Source: Lachnospiraceae bacterium (GTDB lineage: Bacteria > Bacillota > Clostridia > Lachnospirales > Lachnospiraceae). Taken from it: a stretch of 64,000 bases of DNA. Of this stretch, positions 4,601-55,201 are shown piece after piece. The stretch lies in assembly GCA_017468395.1 (NCBI GenBank), contig JAFUIR010000011.1:356618-420617 (forward strand). The letters run 5' to 3'. The notes beneath the pieces were generated by a model, which saw only the letters and a program-made list of their open reading frames with translations, made no database searches and was not told where the DNA came from. The first letter of the stretch is position 1. Each line of letters starts with the position of its first letter. The position numbers and the translations under genes are program-made.

Positions 4601-5049
4601 ACATCAAAGGTGCTACTGCCGCAGGATTGAAAGTAGGTGTGTATTTCTTTACACAGGCCGTAGATGAAATCGAAGCCATTGAAGAAGCATCCATGGTTCT
4701 GGAACTGATTGAAGACTATAAGATTTCCTATCCGGTATTTTTGGATGTGGAAGCCAGCGGCGGCAGAGGGGATAAAATTGATGCGGAAACCAGAACAGCG
4801 GTAATTAAAGCGTTCTGTGAAACCATTGAGGATTCCAAGTATACAGCCGGCGTATATGCAAATAAGACTTGGCTGGAAAAGAAAATGGATGCCAGCGAAT
4901 TGACAAAATATAAAATCTGGTTGGCTCAGTATGCAGCGCAGCCCACTTATTCCGAGACTAAAATCGATCTTTGGCAGTACAAAGAAACCGGTAAAGTCAG
5001 CGGTATCAGTGGCAACGTGGACTTGAATCTCAGTTATTTGGGATACTAA
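1666..5049 (+). CDS. large membrane-anchored GH25 lysozyme-like wall protein with acidic cytoplasmic tail and Ig-like domains
   Basis: The protein has 1127 residues; the ATG at 1666 follows AGAAAGGAT. In order: a Glu/Asp/Tyr-rich, repetitive N-terminal region (about 13-165), one transmembrane helix (about 184-205), a juxtamembrane domain (about 278-386) shared with the second GH25 protein at 7086, an Ig-like region (about 438-507), a Gly/Thr/Pro/Glu-rich linker (about 512-567), two bacterial Ig-like BIG2-type domains (about 584-756) and a further beta-rich segment, short aromatic repeats resembling cell-wall-binding repeats (about 844-931), and a GH25 muramidase domain (932-1127). The GH25 acidic residues are present at Asp935, Asp1027 and Glu1029. 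GH25 enzymes cut the MurNAc-GlcNAc bond of peptidoglycan. It opens the glycan operon, so a role in wall remodelling around glycan attachment is a reasonable inference. The acidic tail should lie in the cytoplasm and may bind basic partners. Confidence 0.85.
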   Translation: MKKLFGQNRKPYDEDVNMEEWDYGEDEYAQEEIYEGDESEMGEYYADEEGYESYEGDETYEDEEFYEGEEVYEDGEAYEDEDVYEDGVVYEDEVVYADEEFAEGESYEGEEVYADEEVYEDGEAYEEEVYEDEVYEEEYYEAQEYEDDALEYEDEAAYEDDIDGVGFFGRIGQSIMNMSIIDKIVTTTGVVVLILALVTGGIYVSANMADRQVSSFGSVGTQLSGLTMIGEEGLFAVADAIEAQIKEANAAEDDDKKDYNENDYSKDVNVVMNMTSIQNDLKVKFVNKRTNKLIGNIPFSVEVTTPKGKTEVWTDDDMDGIIYKKGIDAGGYTILMSALEGEKYEKYNLPESGKKVEVKKEIEYEKVDVADEIKTESEINAKVEDTAQKETVVESELKDTVTWVESTKSTTYVAVAKKDIKDPSVASIGTKFYRLAGEMSISGGGEMAPGSTLQLSASKASDYADWTVSDESWKSDVASVTVDSKGLVTASADITEAKNVTITYTCTLTKPVQEQPGEGTEGGETGEGGTEDNVSGGDGAAGGTGGSTPETTPETTPESKPETKPESVNVTVTHQITVTPVILVKELTVAPATLVLDLSKGVSVGELTATVVTSQDSVSKDVTWSSSNEKVATVKVENGKAVVTAVSAGTATITATSVADSKVAGTCEVTVSGAAMTALQLDKTSASIPRTGTVQLKAITTPEGCPVTWSSDKTEVATVDDKGLVTGLKEGTATITAKGVDATGKELSAKCTVTVTQIITLDKTTLTVIVGGESTINATFTDGGKGELKAYSADTSVVQVEVKDNKTVVFKGIAPKNSVGVTIVYTTTAGEHINTDIAVSVVSNTNKLVDSQGQQLYVLGSDGKYVAAVASDYYKYDTFYVQTTRYTGWQTIGGEVMYFDVNGKYVTGEQVIQGAKYNFASDGTLITGAGTMGIDVSKWNGTIDWNAVKNSGVSYVIIRCGYRGSSSGALVEDPKFKNNIKGATAAGLKVGVYFFTQAVDEIEAIEEASMVLELIEDYKISYPVFLDVEASGGRGDKIDAETRTAVIKAFCETIEDSKYTAGVYANKTWLEKKMDASELTKYKIWLAQYAAQPTYSETKIDLWQYKETGKVSGISGNVDLNLSYLGY
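1702..2150 (+). repeat. degenerate acidic codon repeat encoding a Glu/Asp/Tyr-rich tail
   Basis: This part of the GH25 gene is built from variants of GAAGAAGTCTATGAAGATGG and similar units, giving Tyr-Glu-Asp/Gly-Glu-Glu repeats. Unit lengths vary between about 5 and 8 codons. The repeat probably expands and contracts by slippage or recombination. The translated product is strongly acidic and has no hydrophobic core. Confidence 0.6.
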
Positions 5050-5068
5050 TAGAGAAAAGAGGCAGACT

Positions 5069-45207: not shown

Positions 45208-45552
45208 ATGATTATGTTAGAAGAAAAGAAGTTAAAAGAAAAAGATTTATTGGAAGAAACCACCTGTTGCCATTGTAAAACCAAAGAGCGTTCCGAAAAG
45301 GAATACAAAGACATGGTAAACCGTTTAAACCGTATCGAAGGTCAAATCCGTGGAATTAAAGGCATGGTAGAAAAGGATGCCTATTGTATTGACATTTTAA
45401 CGCAGGTGGCAGCAGTAACAGCAGCCTTGAATAGTTTCAATAAGGTGCTGCTTGGCAATCATATTAAAAGTTGCGTCATAAGCGACATCCGTGAGGGAAA
45501 AGAGGAAACAGTGGACGAATTGCTGGACACCCTCCAGAAGTTGATGAAATAA
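45208..45552 (+). CDS. csoR: copper-sensing transcriptional repressor CsoR
   Basis: The 114-residue protein is all-helical with the DUF156 pattern NRLNRIEGQIRGIKGMVE. The Cu(I) ligands Cys60, His85 and Cys89 are present with the exact 25- and 4-residue spacing of known CsoR proteins, and Tyr59 precedes the first Cys. A longer than usual N-terminus of about 25 residues carries a CCHC cluster that could be an extra metal site. It precedes copA by 89 bases and sits behind a classic CsoR operator. ATG ATT ATG leaves two possible starts two codons apart. Confidence 0.93.
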   Translation: MIMLEEKKLKEKDLLEETTCCHCKTKERSEKEYKDMVNRLNRIEGQIRGIKGMVEKDAYCIDILTQVAAVTAALNSFNKVLLGNHIKSCVISDIREGKEETVDELLDTLQKLMK

Positions 45553-45641
45553 AATAGACGTTTGGGAAAAGGCGGAAGTGTATCATCCTAATACTTCCCG
45601 TATTTCCTAAGCGTTGTGCAGGAGTCTGAAAGGAGCATAAT

Positions 45642-48272
45642 ATGGAGCAATATACAGTTACGGGTATGAGCTGCGCCGCTTGCAGTGCGCGGGTGGAAAA
45701 AGCAGTGACAAAAGTGTCCGGTGTTACAGCCTGCTCGGTAAGTTTGTTGACCAATTCCATGGGAGTGGAGGGCAGTGCTTCACAGCAGGCAATCATAAAG
45801 GCGGTGCAGGATGCAGGTTATGGTGCATCATTAAAAGGCAGTGCCGGGAATAACGGTGCCGGAAATGGTGGCAACGCCGGATTACAGGGAAGCGGAAACA
45901 GTATTTTTGGCGCGGCATCACAGGAGGATGCGCTGGCAGACAGGGAAACGCCGGTTTTGAAAAAGCGTCTTGTGGCATCCCTGCTGTTTTTGGCGGTGCT
46001 GATGTACATTTCCATGGGACATATGATGTGGAACTGGCCACTGCCCTCTTTTCTTGCGGAAAATCATATGGCAGTGGGTCTGTTGCAATTGCTGCTGACG
46101 ATTATTATCATGGTCATTAATCAGAAGTTTTTTATCAGTGGATTCAAAGGTCTTCTTCACAGGGCACCAAACATGGATACGCTGGTGGCACTTGGTTCCG
46201 GAGCATCCTTTGTTTATAGTACGTACGCCCTTTTTGCCATGACAGAAGCAGGAATGCGGGGAGATGCGGAAGGTATGATGTCCTATATGCATGAGTTCTA
46301 TTTTGAGTCCGCGGCTATGATTCTTGCACTGATTACTGTGGGAAAAATGTTGGAGGCAAGGTCCAAGGGAAAGACGACGGATGCCCTAAAAGGGCTTATG
46401 AGACTGGCGCCAAAGACTGCCACTGTTTTAAAAAATGGTGCAGAGGTGCAAGTGCCTGTAGAGCAGGTAAAAAAGGGAGACATTTTTGTGGTACGCCCCG
46501 GTGAAAACATTCCGGTGGATGGCGTTATACTGGAGGGAAGCAGTGCGATAAACGAATCTGTCCTGACGGGAGAAAGTATTCCTGTGGATAAAGAAGCAGG
46601 TGATACAGTGTCTGCGGCTACCACAAACCAATCAGGCTTTTTGAAATGTGAGGCTTCCAGAGTGGGAGAGGACACGACTCTGTCTCAGATTATAAAAATG
46701 GTGAGCGATGCGGCGGCGACCAAGGCGCCTATTGCAAAAGTAGCAGATAAGGTTTCAGGAGTTTTTGTGCCGGTGGTTATTGTGATAGCGCTTGTGACCG
46801 TTGGAATTTGGCTGTTGGCGGGCGAGAGCGTTGGATTTGCTCTGGCGAGGGGGATTTCGGTGCTGGTCATCAGTTGCCCCTGCGCACTGGGACTGGCAAC
46901 CCCTGTGGCTATTATGGTCGGAAATGGAGTGGGTGCTAAAAACGGTATCTTATTTAAAACGGCGGTTTCTCTGGAAAAAACAGGAACTGCGGATATTGTG
47001 GCGCTGGACAAAACCGGAACCATTACCTTGGGCGAACCTAAAGTAACGGATTTGTATGCTGCAGACGATGTGCGGATAAAGGATTTGGTGCAAAAAGCCT
47101 ATGCCTTGGAACAAAAGAGTGAGCACTCTCTGGCAAAGGCTATTATCGCATACGGAAACGAAAGACAAACTCAAAAAACAGAGGTTACAGAGTTTACAGC
47201 GCTGCCCGGCAATGGTCTTACAGGCGTATGCGAGGGCAGAAGGCTGTTTGGCGGAAATGGGAAATTTGTAGGTGAAAAGGTACAAATTCCCGGCGAAGTG
47301 CAAAGCATAGCAGAGCGGTTGGCAAAAGAAGGAAAAACGCCCTTGTTTTTTGCGGAGGATAACAAACTTTTAGGCATTATAGCCGTGGCGGATGTGGTAA
47401 AAGAAGACAGTCCTAAAGCAGTGCAGGAACTGAAAAATATGGGCATCCGTGTAGTGATGCTGACGGGAGATAACGAGCGAACTGCAAAGGCTATCGGCAG
47501 GCAGGCCGGTGTGGATGAAGTAATTGCCGGAGTGTTGCCGGAGGGAAAGGAGAAGGTTATCCGGGAACTGCAAAAGCAGGGCAAGGTGCTGATGGTAGGG
47601 GATGGTATTAACGATGCACCGGCACTTACCGGAGCAGATATGGGCATTGCCATCGGCGCAGGAACGGATGTGGCTATTGACGCGGCAGATGTAGTGCTGA
47701 TGAAAAGCAGCCTTAGGGATGTGCCTGCGGCTATCAGATTGAGCCGTGCTACGCTCCGCAACATTCATCAGAACCTGTTTTGGGCATTCTTTTATAATAT
47801 TATCGGGATTCCTCTTGCGGCGGGGCTTTGGATACCTGTGTTTGGCTGGGAACTGAATCCTATGTTCGGAGCGGCAGCCATGAGTCTTTCCAGTTTCTGC
47901 GTAGTAACCAATGCGCTGCGCCTTAATCTGGTAAAAATACATGACGCCGGCAAAGACAAAAAGAGAAGAAAAAAGACGCTGCAAAAGTCAACTAGTAACA
48001 ATGCTGCAAATAGTGAAACAACAAATAATGAAAATCAAAAAATAGAAAAGGAGATTGGGAAAATGGAAAAAACAATGAAAATCGAAGGAATGATGTGCGG
48101 ACACTGCGAGGCAAGAGTGAAAAAGGTATTGGAGGCACTGCCTGAAGTAAAAGAGGCAATCGTAAGCCATGTAGAAGGAACCGCTGTTGTGAAACTGGAC
48201 GCAGAAATTTCGGATGAGGTGCTGAAAAAGACTGTGGAAGAACAGGATTATAAAGTCATTTCCGTTGGATAA
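45642..48272 (+). CDS. copA: Cu(I)-exporting P1B-type ATPase with C-terminal CopZ-like domain
   Basis: The 876-residue ATPase exports Cu(I). It has an N-terminal metal-binding domain (GMSCAAC, Cys11 and Cys14), eight predicted membrane helices, the CPC motif (412-414), phosphorylated Asp456 in DKTGT, the GDGIND hinge and the MSLSS and YN residues of Cu(I) pumps. The conserved His-Pro motif reads Glu494-His495-Ser496, so Pro is replaced. After helix eight a Lys/Asn-rich linker leads to a second metal-binding domain (808-876) with MCGHC (Cys819, Cys822), which resembles the chaperone CopZ. That domain has its own start site (see 48063-48272). ATG follows AAAGGAG. Confidence 0.93.
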   Translation: MEQYTVTGMSCAACSARVEKAVTKVSGVTACSVSLLTNSMGVEGSASQQAIIKAVQDAGYGASLKGSAGNNGAGNGGNAGLQGSGNSIFGAASQEDALADRETPVLKKRLVASLLFLAVLMYISMGHMMWNWPLPSFLAENHMAVGLLQLLLTIIIMVINQKFFISGFKGLLHRAPNMDTLVALGSGASFVYSTYALFAMTEAGMRGDAEGMMSYMHEFYFESAAMILALITVGKMLEARSKGKTTDALKGLMRLAPKTATVLKNGAEVQVPVEQVKKGDIFVVRPGENIPVDGVILEGSSAINESVLTGESIPVDKEAGDTVSAATTNQSGFLKCEASRVGEDTTLSQIIKMVSDAAATKAPIAKVADKVSGVFVPVVIVIALVTVGIWLLAGESVGFALARGISVLVISCPCALGLATPVAIMVGNGVGAKNGILFKTAVSLEKTGTADIVALDKTGTITLGEPKVTDLYAADDVRIKDLVQKAYALEQKSEHSLAKAIIAYGNERQTQKTEVTEFTALPGNGLTGVCEGRRLFGGNGKFVGEKVQIPGEVQSIAERLAKEGKTPLFFAEDNKLLGIIAVADVVKEDSPKAVQELKNMGIRVVMLTGDNERTAKAIGRQAGVDEVIAGVLPEGKEKVIRELQKQGKVLMVGDGINDAPALTGADMGIAIGAGTDVAIDAADVVLMKSSLRDVPAAIRLSRATLRNIHQNLFWAFFYNIIGIPLAAGLWIPVFGWELNPMFGAAAMSLSSFCVVTNALRLNLVKIHDAGKDKKRRKKTLQKSTSNNAANSETTNNENQKIEKEIGKMEKTMKIEGMMCGHCEARVKKVLEALPEVKEAIVSHVEGTAVVKLDAEISDEVLKKTVEEQDYKVISVG
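48063..48272 (+). CDS. nested CopZ-like copper chaperone (internal in-frame start within copA)
   Basis: An ATG at 48063, in frame with copA (codon 808), has AGGAGA 8 bases upstream, a better ribosome site than many true starts in this window. Translation from it would give a free 69-residue HMA protein with MCGHC near residue 12 and a total length typical of CopZ. So copA mRNA could make both the fused pump and a separate chaperone. This is read from sequence; actual use of the start is untested. Confidence 0.55.
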   Translation: MEKTMKIEGMMCGHCEARVKKVLEALPEVKEAIVSHVEGTAVVKLDAEISDEVLKKTVEEQDYKVISVG

Positions 48273-50851: not shown

Positions 50852-52003
50852 ATGAAAATTTTGATTACAACAGATTTATTTACAACTGCAACTAACGGTG
50901 TGGTGACTTCTGTACGGAATTTGTGGGATGAGTTAAAAAATAAGGGACACGAAGTCCGGATTCTTACACTATCAGAGGATCGGGAAAGTTATAAAGACGG
51001 AGAGGTTTATTATATAAAATCAGTGTCGTTGGAAAAAATCTATCCCAACGTGCGTATGCCGATATCTTTCCGCAATGAGTTCATTCAGGAATTGATTGAT
51101 TGGAAACCGGATGTTATTCATAGCCAGTGTGAATTTTTCAGTTTTCAGTTTGCAAAGCGTATTACAAAGTTAACCGGTGCGCCGCTTGTGCATACTTACC
51201 ATACGCTGTACGAACAGTATGCTACATATGTAATTCCCAGCAAGCGTCTTGGGATACAGGCAGTGCGTTATATGTCCAGGGTAAGATTGAAAGATGTGGA
51301 TATGATTATTGCACCTACGGGCAAGGTGGAGGATGCCCTGCGAGGCTATGGCTTGCAGAATGATATCCGCGTGGTTCCTACCGGAATTTCTTTGGAACAG
51401 CATACCCAAAGACTGAGTCCGGAAGAGAAAAAGGAAAAGAGACTGGCGCTTGGTATTCCTGAAGACCATACGGTTATGCTGAATCTGGGTCGTCTTGGGA
51501 CAGAGAAAAATCTGGGTGAACTCCTTGATTTCTTTGCCACTGCGCTTTTGGACAATCCCAAACTCACTTTTTTGATTGTGGGTGACGGACCGGATAAGGA
51601 ACATTTAGAAGAACAGGCAAAGACGCTGAAAATAGAAGACCATGTAATCTTTACGGGAATGGTGGAGCCTTCACAGGTGCAGAGTTATTATCAGTTGGCG
51701 GATATTTTCGTCAGTGCCTCAACCAGTGAAACCCAAGGTCTTACATATATAGAAGCCGCTGCAAACGGTTTGCCTCTTTTGTGCCGTCAGGACGATTGCC
51801 TGAAAGATGTTATCAAAGAGGGCGTGAACGGCTATGAATATACTTCCTCTGACGAGTTCGTGGATAAAGTAAATACCATCATTGAGGATCCGCAGTGGCG
51901 AGTTAATGCCGGAAAACAAAGTGAAAAAATTGCGGAAACTTTCGGCAAAGGACATTTTGCGGATACTATAGAAGAGATTTATGAATCGGTGATTGAGGAT
52001 TAA
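50852..52003 (+). CDS. GT4 family glycosyltransferase (diacylglycerol glucosyltransferase-like)
   Basis: The 383-residue GT-B protein starts with MKILITTDLFTTATNGVVTS, where the N-G-V-x-T loop near residue 16 contacts the donor. HTYHTLYEQY follows, and the C-terminal half has LNLGRLGTEKN and the E-x7-E-type SETQGLTYIEAAANGLP. This is the pattern of enzymes that glucosylate diacylglycerol to make membrane glycolipids, as in lipoteichoic-acid anchors. It stands alone between the MATE gene and the riboswitch. The ATG has AGGGAAAAG upstream. Confidence 0.88.
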   Translation: MKILITTDLFTTATNGVVTSVRNLWDELKNKGHEVRILTLSEDRESYKDGEVYYIKSVSLEKIYPNVRMPISFRNEFIQELIDWKPDVIHSQCEFFSFQFAKRITKLTGAPLVHTYHTLYEQYATYVIPSKRLGIQAVRYMSRVRLKDVDMIIAPTGKVEDALRGYGLQNDIRVVPTGISLEQHTQRLSPEEKKEKRLALGIPEDHTVMLNLGRLGTEKNLGELLDFFATALLDNPKLTFLIVGDGPDKEHLEEQAKTLKIEDHVIFTGMVEPSQVQSYYQLADIFVSASTSETQGLTYIEAAANGLPLLCRQDDCLKDVIKEGVNGYEYTSSDEFVDKVNTIIEDPQWRVNAGKQSEKIAETFGKGHFADTIEEIYESVIED

Positions 52004-52028: not shown

Positions 52029-52057
52029 TTGACAAGTTCCATATTTAATGCTAAAAT
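52029..52057 (+). promoter_or_regulatory. promoter of the riboswitch-controlled ABC operon
   Basis: TTGACA (52029-52034), a 17-base spacer and TAAAAT (52052-52057), a near-consensus promoter with a start near 52064, just before the aptamer. Confidence 0.75.
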
Positions 52058-52072
52058 TCAACCAATAAAATT

Positions 52073-52160
52073 CCCATGAGGGAGTAGCAAGCGTATATCG
52101 TAGCAAGTCAACATACTGACCAGTTGGTCTGGCTTGTTTTAAATTGCGAGACTCATGTAT
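52073..52160 (+). ncRNA. yybP-ykoY (Mn2+-type) riboswitch aptamer
   Basis: The 5' strand of P1, CATGAG (52075-52080), pairs with CTCATG (52152-52157). The hallmark loops flank it: GGAGTAGC (52081-52088) and GCGAGA (52146-52151). Between them is the P3-type hairpin with GTCAACATACTGACC and GGTCTGGC. This matches the conserved core of the yybP-ykoY class, whose known ligand is Mn2+. It sits between a strong promoter and a terminator and precedes an FtsX-type ABC transporter. Downstream, CTATGCATGA (52169-52178) can pair with TCATGTATAG (52153-52162), competing with P1. Confidence 0.85.
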
Positions 52161-52201
52161 AGGTAAAACTATGCATGAAGTCCATATATTATCAGATGTG
52201 T

Positions 52202-52239
52202 ACCCAAGTATAGTTTTGATACTGTACTTGGGTTTTTTA
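52202..52239 (+). terminator. riboswitch-controlled terminator
   Basis: ACCCAAGTATAG and the CTGTACTTGGGT strand form a stem followed by TTTTTT. ATAGTTTT within it (52210-52217) can pair instead with AAAACTAT (52165-52172), which gives an antiterminator when the aptamer P1 stem is formed. Confidence 0.85.
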
Positions 52240-52266
52240 TATTTCACAATTTAGGAGGATGGAAAG

Positions 52267-52965
52267 ATGTTTATTACTTTGAAAAATGCAACAAAAAAAT
52301 ACGGTGAAGGAGAGTCTTTGGTATATGCGCTGGATCATGCAAATGTAGAAATTGATAAAGGTGAAATTTGTGTAATATTAGGACCTTCCGGCTCTGGTAA
52401 ATCAACACTCCTTAATATGCTGGGCGGTCTGGATCATCTAGATGAAGGAGAAATTATTGTAGGTGATAGAAATCTTTCGAACTACAAAAGCAATATGCTC
52501 ACTGACTACCGCAAAGAAGATGTGGGATTTGTTTTTCAGTTTTACAACCTGATTTCGGATTTAACGGTTGCAGAAAATGTAGAGGTGGTATCGGATATAT
52601 CTGAAAATCCTTTGGATATTGATGAAGTGTTGGAAGCCATGGGGATGCAGAAATACCGTTACCGTTTTCCAAAAGAACTTTCCGGCGGTCAGCAGCAGAG
52701 GGTTGCTATCGCCAGAGCAATCATAAAAAATCCTAAACTTTTACTCTGTGATGAATTGACAGGCGCATTGGATACGAAATCATCAAAAAACGTACTGGAA
52801 TTTATAGAAAAAATAAATAAACTTTATAAGACTACAACGGTTATTATTACCCACAATGAAGCAATTGCAGAAATGGCAGATCGGGTTATTTACATAAAAG
52901 ACGGTAAAGTTCATGAAAACAGAATGAATGCGCACAAAAAAGCCGCCTCTGAATTGGTGCTCTAA
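52267..52965 (+). CDS. ABC transporter ATPase (MacB/LolD-type)
   Basis: The 232-residue protein has Walker A GPSGSGKST, the signature LSGGQQQR, and Walker B LLLCDELTGALD, where the common Pro after Glu is Leu. This is the group of ATPases that partner FtsX-fold permeases in antibiotic resistance, lipoprotein export or signalling. The ATG follows AGGAGG. It is the first gene behind the yybP-ykoY riboswitch and ends 13 bases before its permease. Confidence 0.93.
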   Translation: MFITLKNATKKYGEGESLVYALDHANVEIDKGEICVILGPSGSGKSTLLNMLGGLDHLDEGEIIVGDRNLSNYKSNMLTDYRKEDVGFVFQFYNLISDLTVAENVEVVSDISENPLDIDEVLEAMGMQKYRYRFPKELSGGQQQRVAIARAIIKNPKLLLCDELTGALDTKSSKNVLEFIEKINKLYKTTTVIITHNEAIAEMADRVIYIKDGKVHENRMNAHKKAASELVL

Positions 52966-52978
52966 GGAGGGGAAAGTC

Positions 52979-55201
52979 ATGAAGTTAAATAAAAGATATT
53001 TTCGAAGTATTAAGCATAATTTATCATTTTATGTTTCTTCTACAGTGCTGACCATATTGACATTGTTTCTATTTTTCATGATGAATATTGCAGGAAAATC
53101 TATTAGGGAGTTTGGGGAAGATTTTTTTGCAACTCAAAATATAGAAGATGCGAATTTTACGACTTATCTTCCTATTTCCGAAGAAGAAATAGAATCTCTG
53201 GAAAAAGAGTATGGGGCCAGTCTGGAGCCGCAGTATTACAGTAACATAGAAACGGACGGCGTAACGGCCAGAGTATTCAAAAAGACGAGAGAAATAGACC
53301 TTTACAGTGTAACGGAAGGAAAAGATGCACTTAAAAATGATGAGGTAATCATTTCGGAAGGTTATGCGGTGTATAACGAGGTTTCCATAGGGGATGAACT
53401 AACGATTGGAAGCAAGACATATACTGTGACCGGATTTTTCCAAAGACCGGATTATTTATATATGCTTCAGAATGAAAGTGACTCTTATAAAAATGTCACT
53501 ACATTCTTTCTTGCGTATGTAACAGACGAGGAATTTGAAAGTTTAGGTGGTGAAAATTGTCTCTATTTGGTTTGCTATGGGGAAGACAATCAAAGCGAAT
53601 TTCGCAAAGAAATCAATGAGAAATTTCATATGCGTACTTACATATCTGCAAAAGAGAATATGCGGATTGATATGGTATTAATGCAAGCAGATATGTTTAT
53701 TGTAATATCTTATATCATTTTGGCTGTTATGCCCCTGATTGTTGTGATTCTCGTCAGCATTGTTATCAACCGTAAAGTAAAATCTGAGCAGAAAATGATA
53801 GGCACATTAACTGCTCTTGGTTACAAAAAAGGTAAACTGATGCTTCATTACGCAGGCTTTGCAATGATTCCGGGATTGTTTGGAGGGGGATTGGCTGCAA
53901 TCTTTACAATGATATTTGCACAACCCTTTGGCGAAATCGGATTAATGGATTATGAGCCTATGCGGATAGAGTGCCATTTGGACCCCATAGCTGCAATTAT
54001 AGGAATTGTCGTTCCTACAGTAATGTATGTGTTGGCAGCAATGAATTCAGTTAACAAACTGCTCAAAAAGGATACTGTACTTTTGTTAAACGGAAATGAC
54101 AAACAGGGGGAAAAGGGACGCAGAAATTTATTGGTAAAAAGCAAAGTGTCTTTTCGGTTTAAATATGCACTGCGTTCGTTGATTGGAAATCCTTCCAGGA
54201 CATTTGTAGTTCTTTTGGGTATTTTTCTTGGAAGTTATATAGCGCTTTTGGGCTATAGTCTTTTGGATACTATGGAATATACAAAGGATACTATGGTTGA
54301 CAAAATGGGAAGTTTTGAGTATCAGTATGTGCTCAATGAACTAACCGAAGGAAACGGATACGGCGGGGAACCCGTTATAATGTCTGCAATGGAAAGCAAA
54401 GAGGGAGAACAATTCAGCATTATCGGTACATCCGATACGAATCCTTATCTGAGTTTAAAAGATGTGCAGGGAAACCAGGTGAAACTGGAAGATGGATATT
54501 ACATTACAAATGTCATGGCAATATTGCAAAATGTTCAAAGCGGCGATAAACTTACAATTTTCAATCCTTTGACTTTGGAAGAATATGAGATTACGGTTGC
54601 CGGGATTTTGGATAATGACATGCAAAATGCAATATTTACCAATAGAGAAAATGCCGCCGGGATTCTGGATATCAAGAAAGAAGTCAGCAATGTAATTATG
54701 AGTGACAAGGCACTGGATATTCCTGAGTCTAAGGTTATCCAGACTATTAAAAAAACAGATGCCAAGGAACAATTTGAAAATATGTCAAGTCAAATGAATG
54801 TAATGATATATTTTTTGATTGGTATAGGTGCGGTTATTTGTGTGGCATCTATATATGTTGCTGTGAACATGTTGGTAACGGAGAACCGGTCTAATATCTC
54901 TATGCTGAAAGTATTGGGTTACAAAGATAAACAAATCAATCAGATTGTATTAAGGGTAAATCATATCTTGTTGCCCATAGGAATTCTTGTAAGCATTCCG
55001 CTGGTACTTGCTTCGATAAACGGTTTTATGGTTTGGATGGCAACGTTTATCGGTGTTCTGCCGAAGGCATACATTGCACCTTGGAGTTTTGTTTATACAA
55101 CCATTCTGGCTTGCTGTAGTTATTTTGGCTCGCTGTTTTTATTGAGACGCAAGGTGTCCAAAGTAGATATGGTGGAAAGTTTGAAGGACAACCGGGAATA
55201 A
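52979..55201 (+). CDS. FtsX-like ABC transporter permease
   Basis: The protein has 740 residues from the ATG at 52979, which follows AAGGAGG; a longer frame overlapping the ATPase gene is not needed. One N-terminal helix (about 17-37) is followed by an extracellular domain (about 40-240), then helices and an FtsX core, a second extracellular domain (about 440-600) and a final FtsX core (about 610-735). The duplicated FtsX arrangement resembles MacB-like or BceB-like transporters that act as mechanotransducers or exporters. The riboswitch suggests control by Mn2+, so a role in metal or envelope homeostasis is inferred. Confidence 0.9.
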   Translation: MKLNKRYFRSIKHNLSFYVSSTVLTILTLFLFFMMNIAGKSIREFGEDFFATQNIEDANFTTYLPISEEEIESLEKEYGASLEPQYYSNIETDGVTARVFKKTREIDLYSVTEGKDALKNDEVIISEGYAVYNEVSIGDELTIGSKTYTVTGFFQRPDYLYMLQNESDSYKNVTTFFLAYVTDEEFESLGGENCLYLVCYGEDNQSEFRKEINEKFHMRTYISAKENMRIDMVLMQADMFIVISYIILAVMPLIVVILVSIVINRKVKSEQKMIGTLTALGYKKGKLMLHYAGFAMIPGLFGGGLAAIFTMIFAQPFGEIGLMDYEPMRIECHLDPIAAIIGIVVPTVMYVLAAMNSVNKLLKKDTVLLLNGNDKQGEKGRRNLLVKSKVSFRFKYALRSLIGNPSRTFVVLLGIFLGSYIALLGYSLLDTMEYTKDTMVDKMGSFEYQYVLNELTEGNGYGGEPVIMSAMESKEGEQFSIIGTSDTNPYLSLKDVQGNQVKLEDGYYITNVMAILQNVQSGDKLTIFNPLTLEEYEITVAGILDNDMQNAIFTNRENAAGILDIKKEVSNVIMSDKALDIPESKVIQTIKKTDAKEQFENMSSQMNVMIYFLIGIGAVICVASIYVAVNMLVTENRSNISMLKVLGYKDKQINQIVLRVNHILLPIGILVSIPLVLASINGFMVWMATFIGVLPKAYIAPWSFVYTTILACCSYFGSLFLLRRKVSKVDMVESLKDNRE

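Follow-up and report, generated by a model that had tools for sequence, protein, structure and literature searches.

Riboswitches of the yybP-ykoY class (RF00080), described for mntP, P-type ATPase and GDT1/UPF0016 genes, combine a P1/L1/P3/L3 core with an attenuator, and the bridging of L1 and L3 by Mn2+ is a feature of the class. The same core and attenuator layout, with core letters equal to those of mntP copies in the family, is present in a 64,000-nucleotide stretch of DNA from a gut bacterium of the Lachnospiraceae (GCA_017468395.1, contig JAFUIR010000011.1, forward-strand positions 356,618–420,617), to which we refer as the window. Compared to the known riboswitches, the window element precedes an operon encoding an ATP-binding cassette (ABC) ATPase and an FtsX-type permease, shows no P4 arm and scores below the Rfam cut-off. 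We propose, with a probability of roughly 0.7, that this leader is a Mn2+-sensing transcriptional ON switch, as predicted from sequence, for an ABC-FtsX operon of the mechanotransmission type with a role in iron-manganese (Fe/Mn) balance.

The operon itself is related to the type VII systems MacB, LolCDE and BceAB, with which it has in common a MacB/LolD-like ATPase, FtsX domains and a weak match to the MacB core domain (in 16 of 32 relatives). It differs from them in that the permease consists of two FtsX units in a single 740-residue chain, matches no NCBIfam family and has no MacA-like membrane-fusion partner adjoining the window operon. HrtBA, a haem exporter of the FtsX-type ABC group with a role in iron physiology, has a permease of a single FtsX unit. 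The ATPase of PDB entries 7w78-7w7d, which are listed as a "putative ABC transport system" and which we take to be HrtBA, matches the window ATPase. A further connection is to the DtxR/MntR-family iron-manganese regulons: a sequence box upstream of permease relatives is also found at feoA/feoB, DtxR-family, Nramp and Zip genes, whereas the window operon is without this box and has the riboswitch instead.

The sequence-only reading of this DNA had assumed that such a pairing is not already well documented. This agrees with the searchable literature, which, with the class-defining papers (Dambach 2015, Price 2015) beyond its scope, gave no link of yybP-ykoY to FtsX or to an ABC transporter permease, no manganese riboswitch report with an ABC transporter and MntP or with Lachnospiraceae, and none joining feoB, an FtsX-like permease and manganese. 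The available text of PMC11477304 and of PMC9294342 names no FtsX-type target. The presence of a riboswitch is a strong indication of what its target genes do, and here a well-known sensor points to poorly understood FtsX transporters.

Aptamer identity

The near-consensus promoter, the aptamer core (CATGAG, GGAGTAGC, GCGAGA and CTCATG), the terminator with a U-run, and the ABC ATPase gene followed by an FtsX permease gene, all noted in the sequence-only reading, are found in the window (Table 1), as is an L3 block, GTCAACATACT, that was absent from that reading. Its assignment of the leader to the Mn-type yybP-ykoY class is likewise supported by sequence, structure and target genes. The aptamer contains P1.1 with L1 (GGAGUA.../...GAGA) and P1.2, as judged by sequence and covariation, and P3 with L3 CAACAUACU, a block that also aligns to E. 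coli mntP. The L1 and L3 letters are identical between the window aptamer and the family mntP copies (GGGAGTAGC, CAACATACT). The promoter matches the consensus at 11 of 12 positions, and promoter-like sites across the region are no commoner than in shuffled sequence.

Of the 397 genomes of the family, 22 contain the core pattern GGGAGTAGC-N4..34-GTCAACATACT, and none contains its reversed control. Nineteen of these 22 places lie before an MntP gene, two, in the window and in G064, before an ABC-FtsX operon (G and L numbers denote genomes and loci of this analysis), and one is truncated. MntP and MurI were initially named by eye, and MntP later by BLAST and PF02659. The truncated copy, an aptamer without its 3' half, is located directly before a MurI-like gene (L022, G006). 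A covariance model, R1, was built from an alignment of 26 aptamers, namely 21 of the 22 core-pattern aptamers (the truncated copy omitted) and five found upstream of ABC-FtsX genes. Compensatory changes occur at 16 of the 25 pairs in the consensus fold, with 60 doubly changed pair cells compared to 12.4 in shuffles and 3–10 in slid versions of the alignment. The R1 score of 98.5 bits for the window is partly circular, as the window copy is among the 26 training rows. Within 9 kb, the top R1 match (23.4 bits, E 2.7e-5) is the proven E. coli mntP aptamer, which was not in the training set. In the family, R1 matches 208 of 397 genomes at E ≤ 0.01; Rfam's current Manganese model thus overlooks a common branch that this lineage-built model reaches.

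Table 1. Features of the riboswitch-ABC-FtsX operon, in window coordinates
Feature	Position	Strand	Basis or remark
Sigma-70-type promoter, TTGACA-17-TAAAAT, extended -10 TG	52029..52057	+	consensus scan only, 11/12 matches
Aptamer, Mn-type (yybP-ykoY)	52072..52159	+	R1 98.5 bits; covariation; RF00080 22.1 bits
P1.1	52075-52080 (CATGAG) / 52152-52157 (CTCATG)	+	
L1	52081-52086	+	
P1.2	52087-52090/52144-52147	+	
P2, short	52091-52093/52099-52101	+	
P3; L3	52102-52110/52130-52138; 52110-52117	+	
P3b	52118-52121/52126-52129	+	
Anti-aptamer hairpin (predicted OFF state), takes P1 3' strand	52150..52182	+	minimum-energy fold; by eye in 14 aligned leaders
Antiterminator 5' strand AAAACTATGC	52165..52174	+	partner GTATAGTTTT at 52208-52217 (predicted ON state); stepwise folding
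Intrinsic terminator, 13 pairs then T-run	52202..52239	+	5' arm contains antiterminator 3' strand; scan match with T-run at 52202-52233
ABC ATPase, 232 residues, MacB/LolD/BceA type	52267..52965	+	PF00005, 7.8e-34
Permease, 740 residues, two FtsX units, one extracellular domain per unit	52979..55201	+	PF02687, two stretches

Switching layout

The leader (52068-52240) folds into a structure much more stable than those of its shuffles (z = -7.5). P1 and the anti-aptamer hairpin are mutually exclusive, because both need CTCATG. When folding is followed stepwise with the aptamer set aside, AAAACTATGC and GTATAGTTTT pair once the latter has been made (-12.8 kcal/mol at 60 nucleotides), and the terminator prevails only when its 3' arm appears. 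By eye, every one of the 14 aligned leaders has the anti-aptamer helix, and most have the antiterminator strands, with L016 as a poor example.

This arrangement suggests the following mechanism. At low Mn2+, the anti-aptamer hairpin would capture the 3' strand of P1 and hide AAAACTATGC, such that the terminator forms. Mn2+ bridging L1 and L3 would close P1; the freed AAAACTATGC could then pair with GTATAGTTTT in the 5' arm of the terminator, permitting read-through into the operon. The layout agrees with the mode of the class given in the available part of PMC9294342, in which Mn2+ binding causes antitermination or frees the ribosome-binding site. It does not fit the label of OFF switches applied to Mn riboswitches in the available part of PMC11477304.

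Targets of the riboswitch

The best 150 R1 places in the 397 family genomes were compiled into a census (140 as L060-L199 and 10 from earlier loci), in which MntP and ABC targets were named by BLAST against the window-family proteins and others from protein starts, with 10 representatives checked against Pfam. The first sizeable gene encodes MntP at 100 of these places, a P-type cation ATPase at 14, a Na/Ca exchanger at 14 and GDT1 at two, and a known Mn/cation exporter is therefore first at 130 of 150. ABC-FtsX is the first sizeable gene at 12 places and the second at two; a contig end is met at two, and MgtE, TetR, AlsT and OadB are targets once each. An FtsX-type ABC transporter, described in the sequence-only reading as not a usual target, is recurrent and not a one-off. 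Unusual targets are also found where R1 riboswitches precede a sodium:alanine symporter (L195), an oxaloacetate decarboxylase beta subunit (L196) and MgtE (L081). A pair of R1 matches lies about 50 nucleotides apart on the same strand, in tandem (G404:C60:4832-4927 and 4976-5067).

The 12 direct pairs are from G000 (the window), G064, G190, G131, G125, G221, G004, G335, G355, G116, G166 and G044. The G166 permease is very divergent and that of G044 is cut by a contig end; the permease of G064:C78 (L205) is split into frames of 429 and 273 residues, which may reflect decay or an assembly error. In two loci the riboswitch is followed by another gene and then ABC-FtsX: an HlyD-like protein in a MacAB-like arrangement (L226, L150), and a 665-residue, exported-looking protein with no Pfam match (L225, L135). 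In a class-wide sample, R1 matches 77 of 291 genomes at E ≤ 1e-6. Among 29 new loci read from the best of these matches (the core not being located in L359 and wrongly located in L374; L361 and L364 repeat census entries), the riboswitch precedes such an ATPase in four, G453, G528 and G480 of one genus and G668, representing two other families. Their permeases are only partly contained in the loci and were identified by BLAST (G668) or by eye from the first 213–256 residues (the other three). With eight further distinct pairs from the named collection (L230, L231, L233-L237 and L245; L254, on a contig as long as that of G064, not counted), the number of distinct direct riboswitch/ABC-FtsX pairs in all collections is 24.

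Conservation of the pairing

A relative of the window permease (E ≤ 1e-30) is encoded in 98 of the 397 family genomes, and its named relatives are from Mordavella massiliensis (L230) and Lachnospiraceae metagenome-assembled genomes. All nine loci in which the permease is at least 74% identical and the upstream DNA is readable contain the riboswitch; the upstream sequence of L232 is too short for a riboswitch call. Apart from two pairs of near relatives, the genes flanking these close orthologs vary by genome, while the unit of riboswitch, ATPase and permease is preserved. A tree of 83 permeases requires four changes (gains or losses) in the presence of the riboswitch, each forced by well-supported branches, compared to a mean of 16.5 changes with shuffled labels, where none of 500 shuffles was as low as four. 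The 83 rows were drawn from 106 by omitting every second "other" row from L256 on and those whose upstream DNA was short or missing; near-copies were kept. Riboswitches mark the window clade, the group L039/L044/L045/L049, the group L040/L116/L222/L223, and L224, whose placement on a long branch is unsure.

Chance capture, in which a copied mntP riboswitch came to lie upstream of an unrelated operon, would account for the near identity of the window aptamer to the mntP copies and for a pairing that is patchy within the genus. We consider it extremely improbable, given that the riboswitch is kept in the nine readable close orthologs amid differing neighborhoods and is found in other groups of the permease tree. 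The recurrence of the pairing in many relatives suggests that the transporter helps cells with a disturbed manganese-iron balance.

The transporter

The closest solved chains to the ATPase are MJ0796, BceA, MacB and LolD, and the permease has only weak solved relatives (MacB, PsdB and 5xu1). An AlphaFold2 model of the permease (32 sequences; predicted local distance difference test 84.2, predicted TM-score 0.78) has the predicted order of one transmembrane helix, an extracellular domain and three transmembrane helices, occurring twice, in which the membrane sides are inferred. PF02687 FtsX is found in all 32 relatives, and the FtsX permease and its cognate ATPase share one operon. Residues conserved in at least 85% of 106 permeases are Glu56, Asp57, Arg98, Asp158, Tyr159 and Asp168 of the first extracellular domain, and Glu270, His290 and Tyr291 of the first FtsX unit. 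The ATPase and the doubled-FtsX permease would constitute a mechanotransmission (type VII) transporter, which may act at the outer leaflet or cell wall on a lipid, lipoprotein, peptide or metal-bound amphiphile, and would be active during Mn excess or at a low Fe:Mn ratio.

If the ABC-FtsX pair were itself a Mn2+ (or Fe2+) efflux pump, replacing or backing up MntP, its possession of the same riboswitch as mntP, and the occurrence of this riboswitch before both mntP and ABC-FtsX in one genome (G131; L009 and L040), would be readily explained. A weak match of permease residues 215-313 to PF01988 VIT (E 1.1e-4) would also fit, but it is under the cut-off and occurs in only two of 32 relatives, and a VIT identity of the permease was rejected on these grounds. 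Comparison of the permease with Pfam and NCBIfam gave no MntP, GDT1, P-type ATPase or CaCA domain, and the helix order of the model corresponds to two FtsX units. The action of type VII transporters is from the outer face, and no FtsX-type transporter is known to carry ions across the membrane. In addition, the window genome has MntP (PF02659) elsewhere, with no riboswitch match there. Direct Mn2+ export by the ABC-FtsX transporter is unlikely, and we give the pump only a slim chance. Of the suggestion in the sequence-only reading of a Mn2+ efflux or Mn-linked envelope system, the efflux part is considered unlikely, there being no significant similarity to known Mn2+ exporter families. The envelope part is closer, with iron added because several relatives sit by feo, ferrosome-like or Znu-Zip genes or carry the box described below.

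A detoxification transporter for antimicrobial peptides or cell-wall antibiotics (BceAB/MacAB/LanFEG-like), for which Mn or iron is only a cue for host or envelope conditions, is suggested by the solved relatives identified by sequence, MacB, PsdB/PsdA, BceA and LolD. It is also consistent with the HlyD-type (MacA-like) membrane-fusion partner in L150, as in MacAB, among the riboswitch-ABC loci with the first gene read, and with response-regulator genes within about 5 kb in two relatives (G004 and G125). No sensor-kinase pair was seen adjoining the window operon, however, and the wiring to metals by two unrelated devices, the riboswitch and the box (the latter in 22 of 71 non-riboswitch relatives), weighs against such a function, which we regard as doubtful.

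Iron-manganese context

The preferred interpretation of the operon as an Mn2+-switched transporter in Fe/Mn balance is supported by the surroundings of its relatives. In G335 (L116 3267-15001), the riboswitch-ABC-FtsX operon is located between two feo sets (FeoB of both identified by Pfam, feoA by eye), and the second set is followed by genes for a small regulator-like protein, a DUF6110 protein and a heavy-metal P-type ATPase. We take this arrangement to resemble the ferrosome genes fezA/fezB. FezB is mentioned as a ferrosome iron transporter in the available text of PMC10979944. ABC-FtsX follows feoA-feoA-feoB (by eye) in G070 and G017, and the order in L299 is riboswitch, MntP, AraC-like, ABC-FtsX, ZnuABC-like and Zip-like (ZnuA by Pfam, the others by eye).

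The possibility that the yybP-ykoY fold is correct, but that the window variant responds to another divalent ion such as Fe2+ or Ca2+, gains from the feo and ferrosome-like genes around transporter relatives, from the Na/Ca exchangers and Ca-type P-ATPases among the R1 targets, and from the pneumococcal mgtA aptamer, which binds Ca2+ as well according to the available part of PMC9495176. Since the window L1 and L3 letters equal those of the family mntP copies, we judge this rather improbable and infer Mn2+ as the ligand of the window copy.

A second potential device, the box GTTAG-N6-CTAAC, is present within 400 bp upstream of 22 of 71 unique permease operons that lack the riboswitch, compared to a Markov expectation with a mean of 0.02 and a maximum of 1 in 200. 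The reversed motif was found in none of 87 upstream regions; these were obtained from the 92 of 106 permease loci with usable upstream DNA by dropping five near-identical ones, and comprise 16 with and 71 without a riboswitch. None of the 16 riboswitch-bearing upstreams, including that of the window operon, contains the box, and 49 of the 71 others have neither box nor riboswitch. Counts in 16 genomes, 14 of which were chosen because they have such operons but with no riboswitch, were 139 for the box and 23 for the reversed control. Three copies are present in the window genome, all away from the operon, between DtxR-family (Pfam) and Fur-like (by eye) genes and before feoA-/feoB-like genes (by eye); as the reversed control gives two there, these three alone mean little.

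Twenty box regions were fetched, in which the box precedes Nramp (Pfam), Zip (Pfam), feo, Fur-like, DtxR-family, ApbE-like and DUF3793-like/flavodoxin genes, but also, unexplained, enolase and ribosomal-protein genes and genes without a metal link. The enolase-like cases are from two genomes (L330 and L342) and are unexplained for a metal box. Three further box sites adjoin a second FtsX-type operon (e.g. L344), a pattern that repeats at most once and was left uncounted. The box is read as a metal-regulator site because DtxR-family, feoA/feoB, Nramp and Zip genes adjoin other copies, and the same neighbors disfavor a TetR-type site, which was considered as a TetR-type gene lies upstream in some relatives. 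From position alone, we infer a DtxR-family protein as its probable binder. Sites of DtxR-family regulators are metal-dependent repressor sites; if the box is such a site, box and riboswitch would both turn the operon on at low iron:manganese, and the unrelated, probably metal-dependent box would thus point the same way as the riboswitch.

An economical interpretation has the transporter responding to the cellular Fe/Mn state, through a metal repressor box in many lineages and a Mn2+ riboswitch in some. Excess Mn affects the biogenesis of Fe-S clusters and haem proteins, according to the available part of PMC9603457. A bolder proposal, to which we give somewhat less than even odds, is that ABC-FtsX could be a standard, unrecognized part of iron-manganese balance in Clostridia, the family being wired interchangeably to a DtxR-type box or a Mn2+ riboswitch, both ON at low Fe:Mn. 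It might then remove or release, at the membrane, a substrate that is metal-bound or damaged by metal, such as a haem-like amphiphile, a lipoprotein or a wall precursor. The evidence from riboswitch and box gives these FtsX genes a directly testable function.

Evidence against the assignment

Several observations weigh against the proposed Mn2+ switch and its role. The covariance-model check suggested in the sequence-only reading was negative with RF00080, which found nothing in the window at its gathering cut-off (45 bits); a permissive search gave 22.1 bits, covering the P3 arm only. Over the window's own genome, RF00080 gave no match at E ≤ 10, which is ascribed to loss in the fast first pass. 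R1 in turn matched E. coli alx, a proven Mn switch, weakly (8.3 bits, E 0.99). Once complete, the terminator exceeds the antiterminator in stability. The nearest permeases outside the window clade, L238 (62%) and L239 (57%; operon near a contig start), have no riboswitch match, two genomes of the same genus have neither riboswitch nor close permease, and no feo or other Fe/Mn gene adjoins the window operon.

Two of these points bear a different interpretation. RF00080 also scored the experimentally known E. coli mntP leader below 45 bits (41.6 bits), and in 16 related loci (62 kb), which include riboswitches upstream of genes for MntP, P-type ATPase and GDT1, it (Rfam release 15) gave no match at E ≤ 0.01, a value that a 22-bit match could not reach in 62 kb. 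As E. coli mntP and these loci are missed too, we take the failure of RF00080 as a probable limit of the model for this sequence group, and do not treat a score above its cut-off as a defining feature of the class. The greater strength of the finished terminator implies that the switch must be kinetic. Other sub-threshold Rfam matches (SNORA72, CRISPR-DR17, bglG and others) were dismissed as chance.

Neighboring genes in the window

A GT4 glycosyltransferase gene (50852-52003) ends about 25 nucleotides before the promoter; its best NCBIfam model, below the cut-off of that model, is alpha-monoglucosyldiacylglycerol synthase. Further upstream of the riboswitch operon (45208-48272), a CsoR-like gene, recognized by eye, is followed by the gene for a CopA-type copper P-type ATPase.

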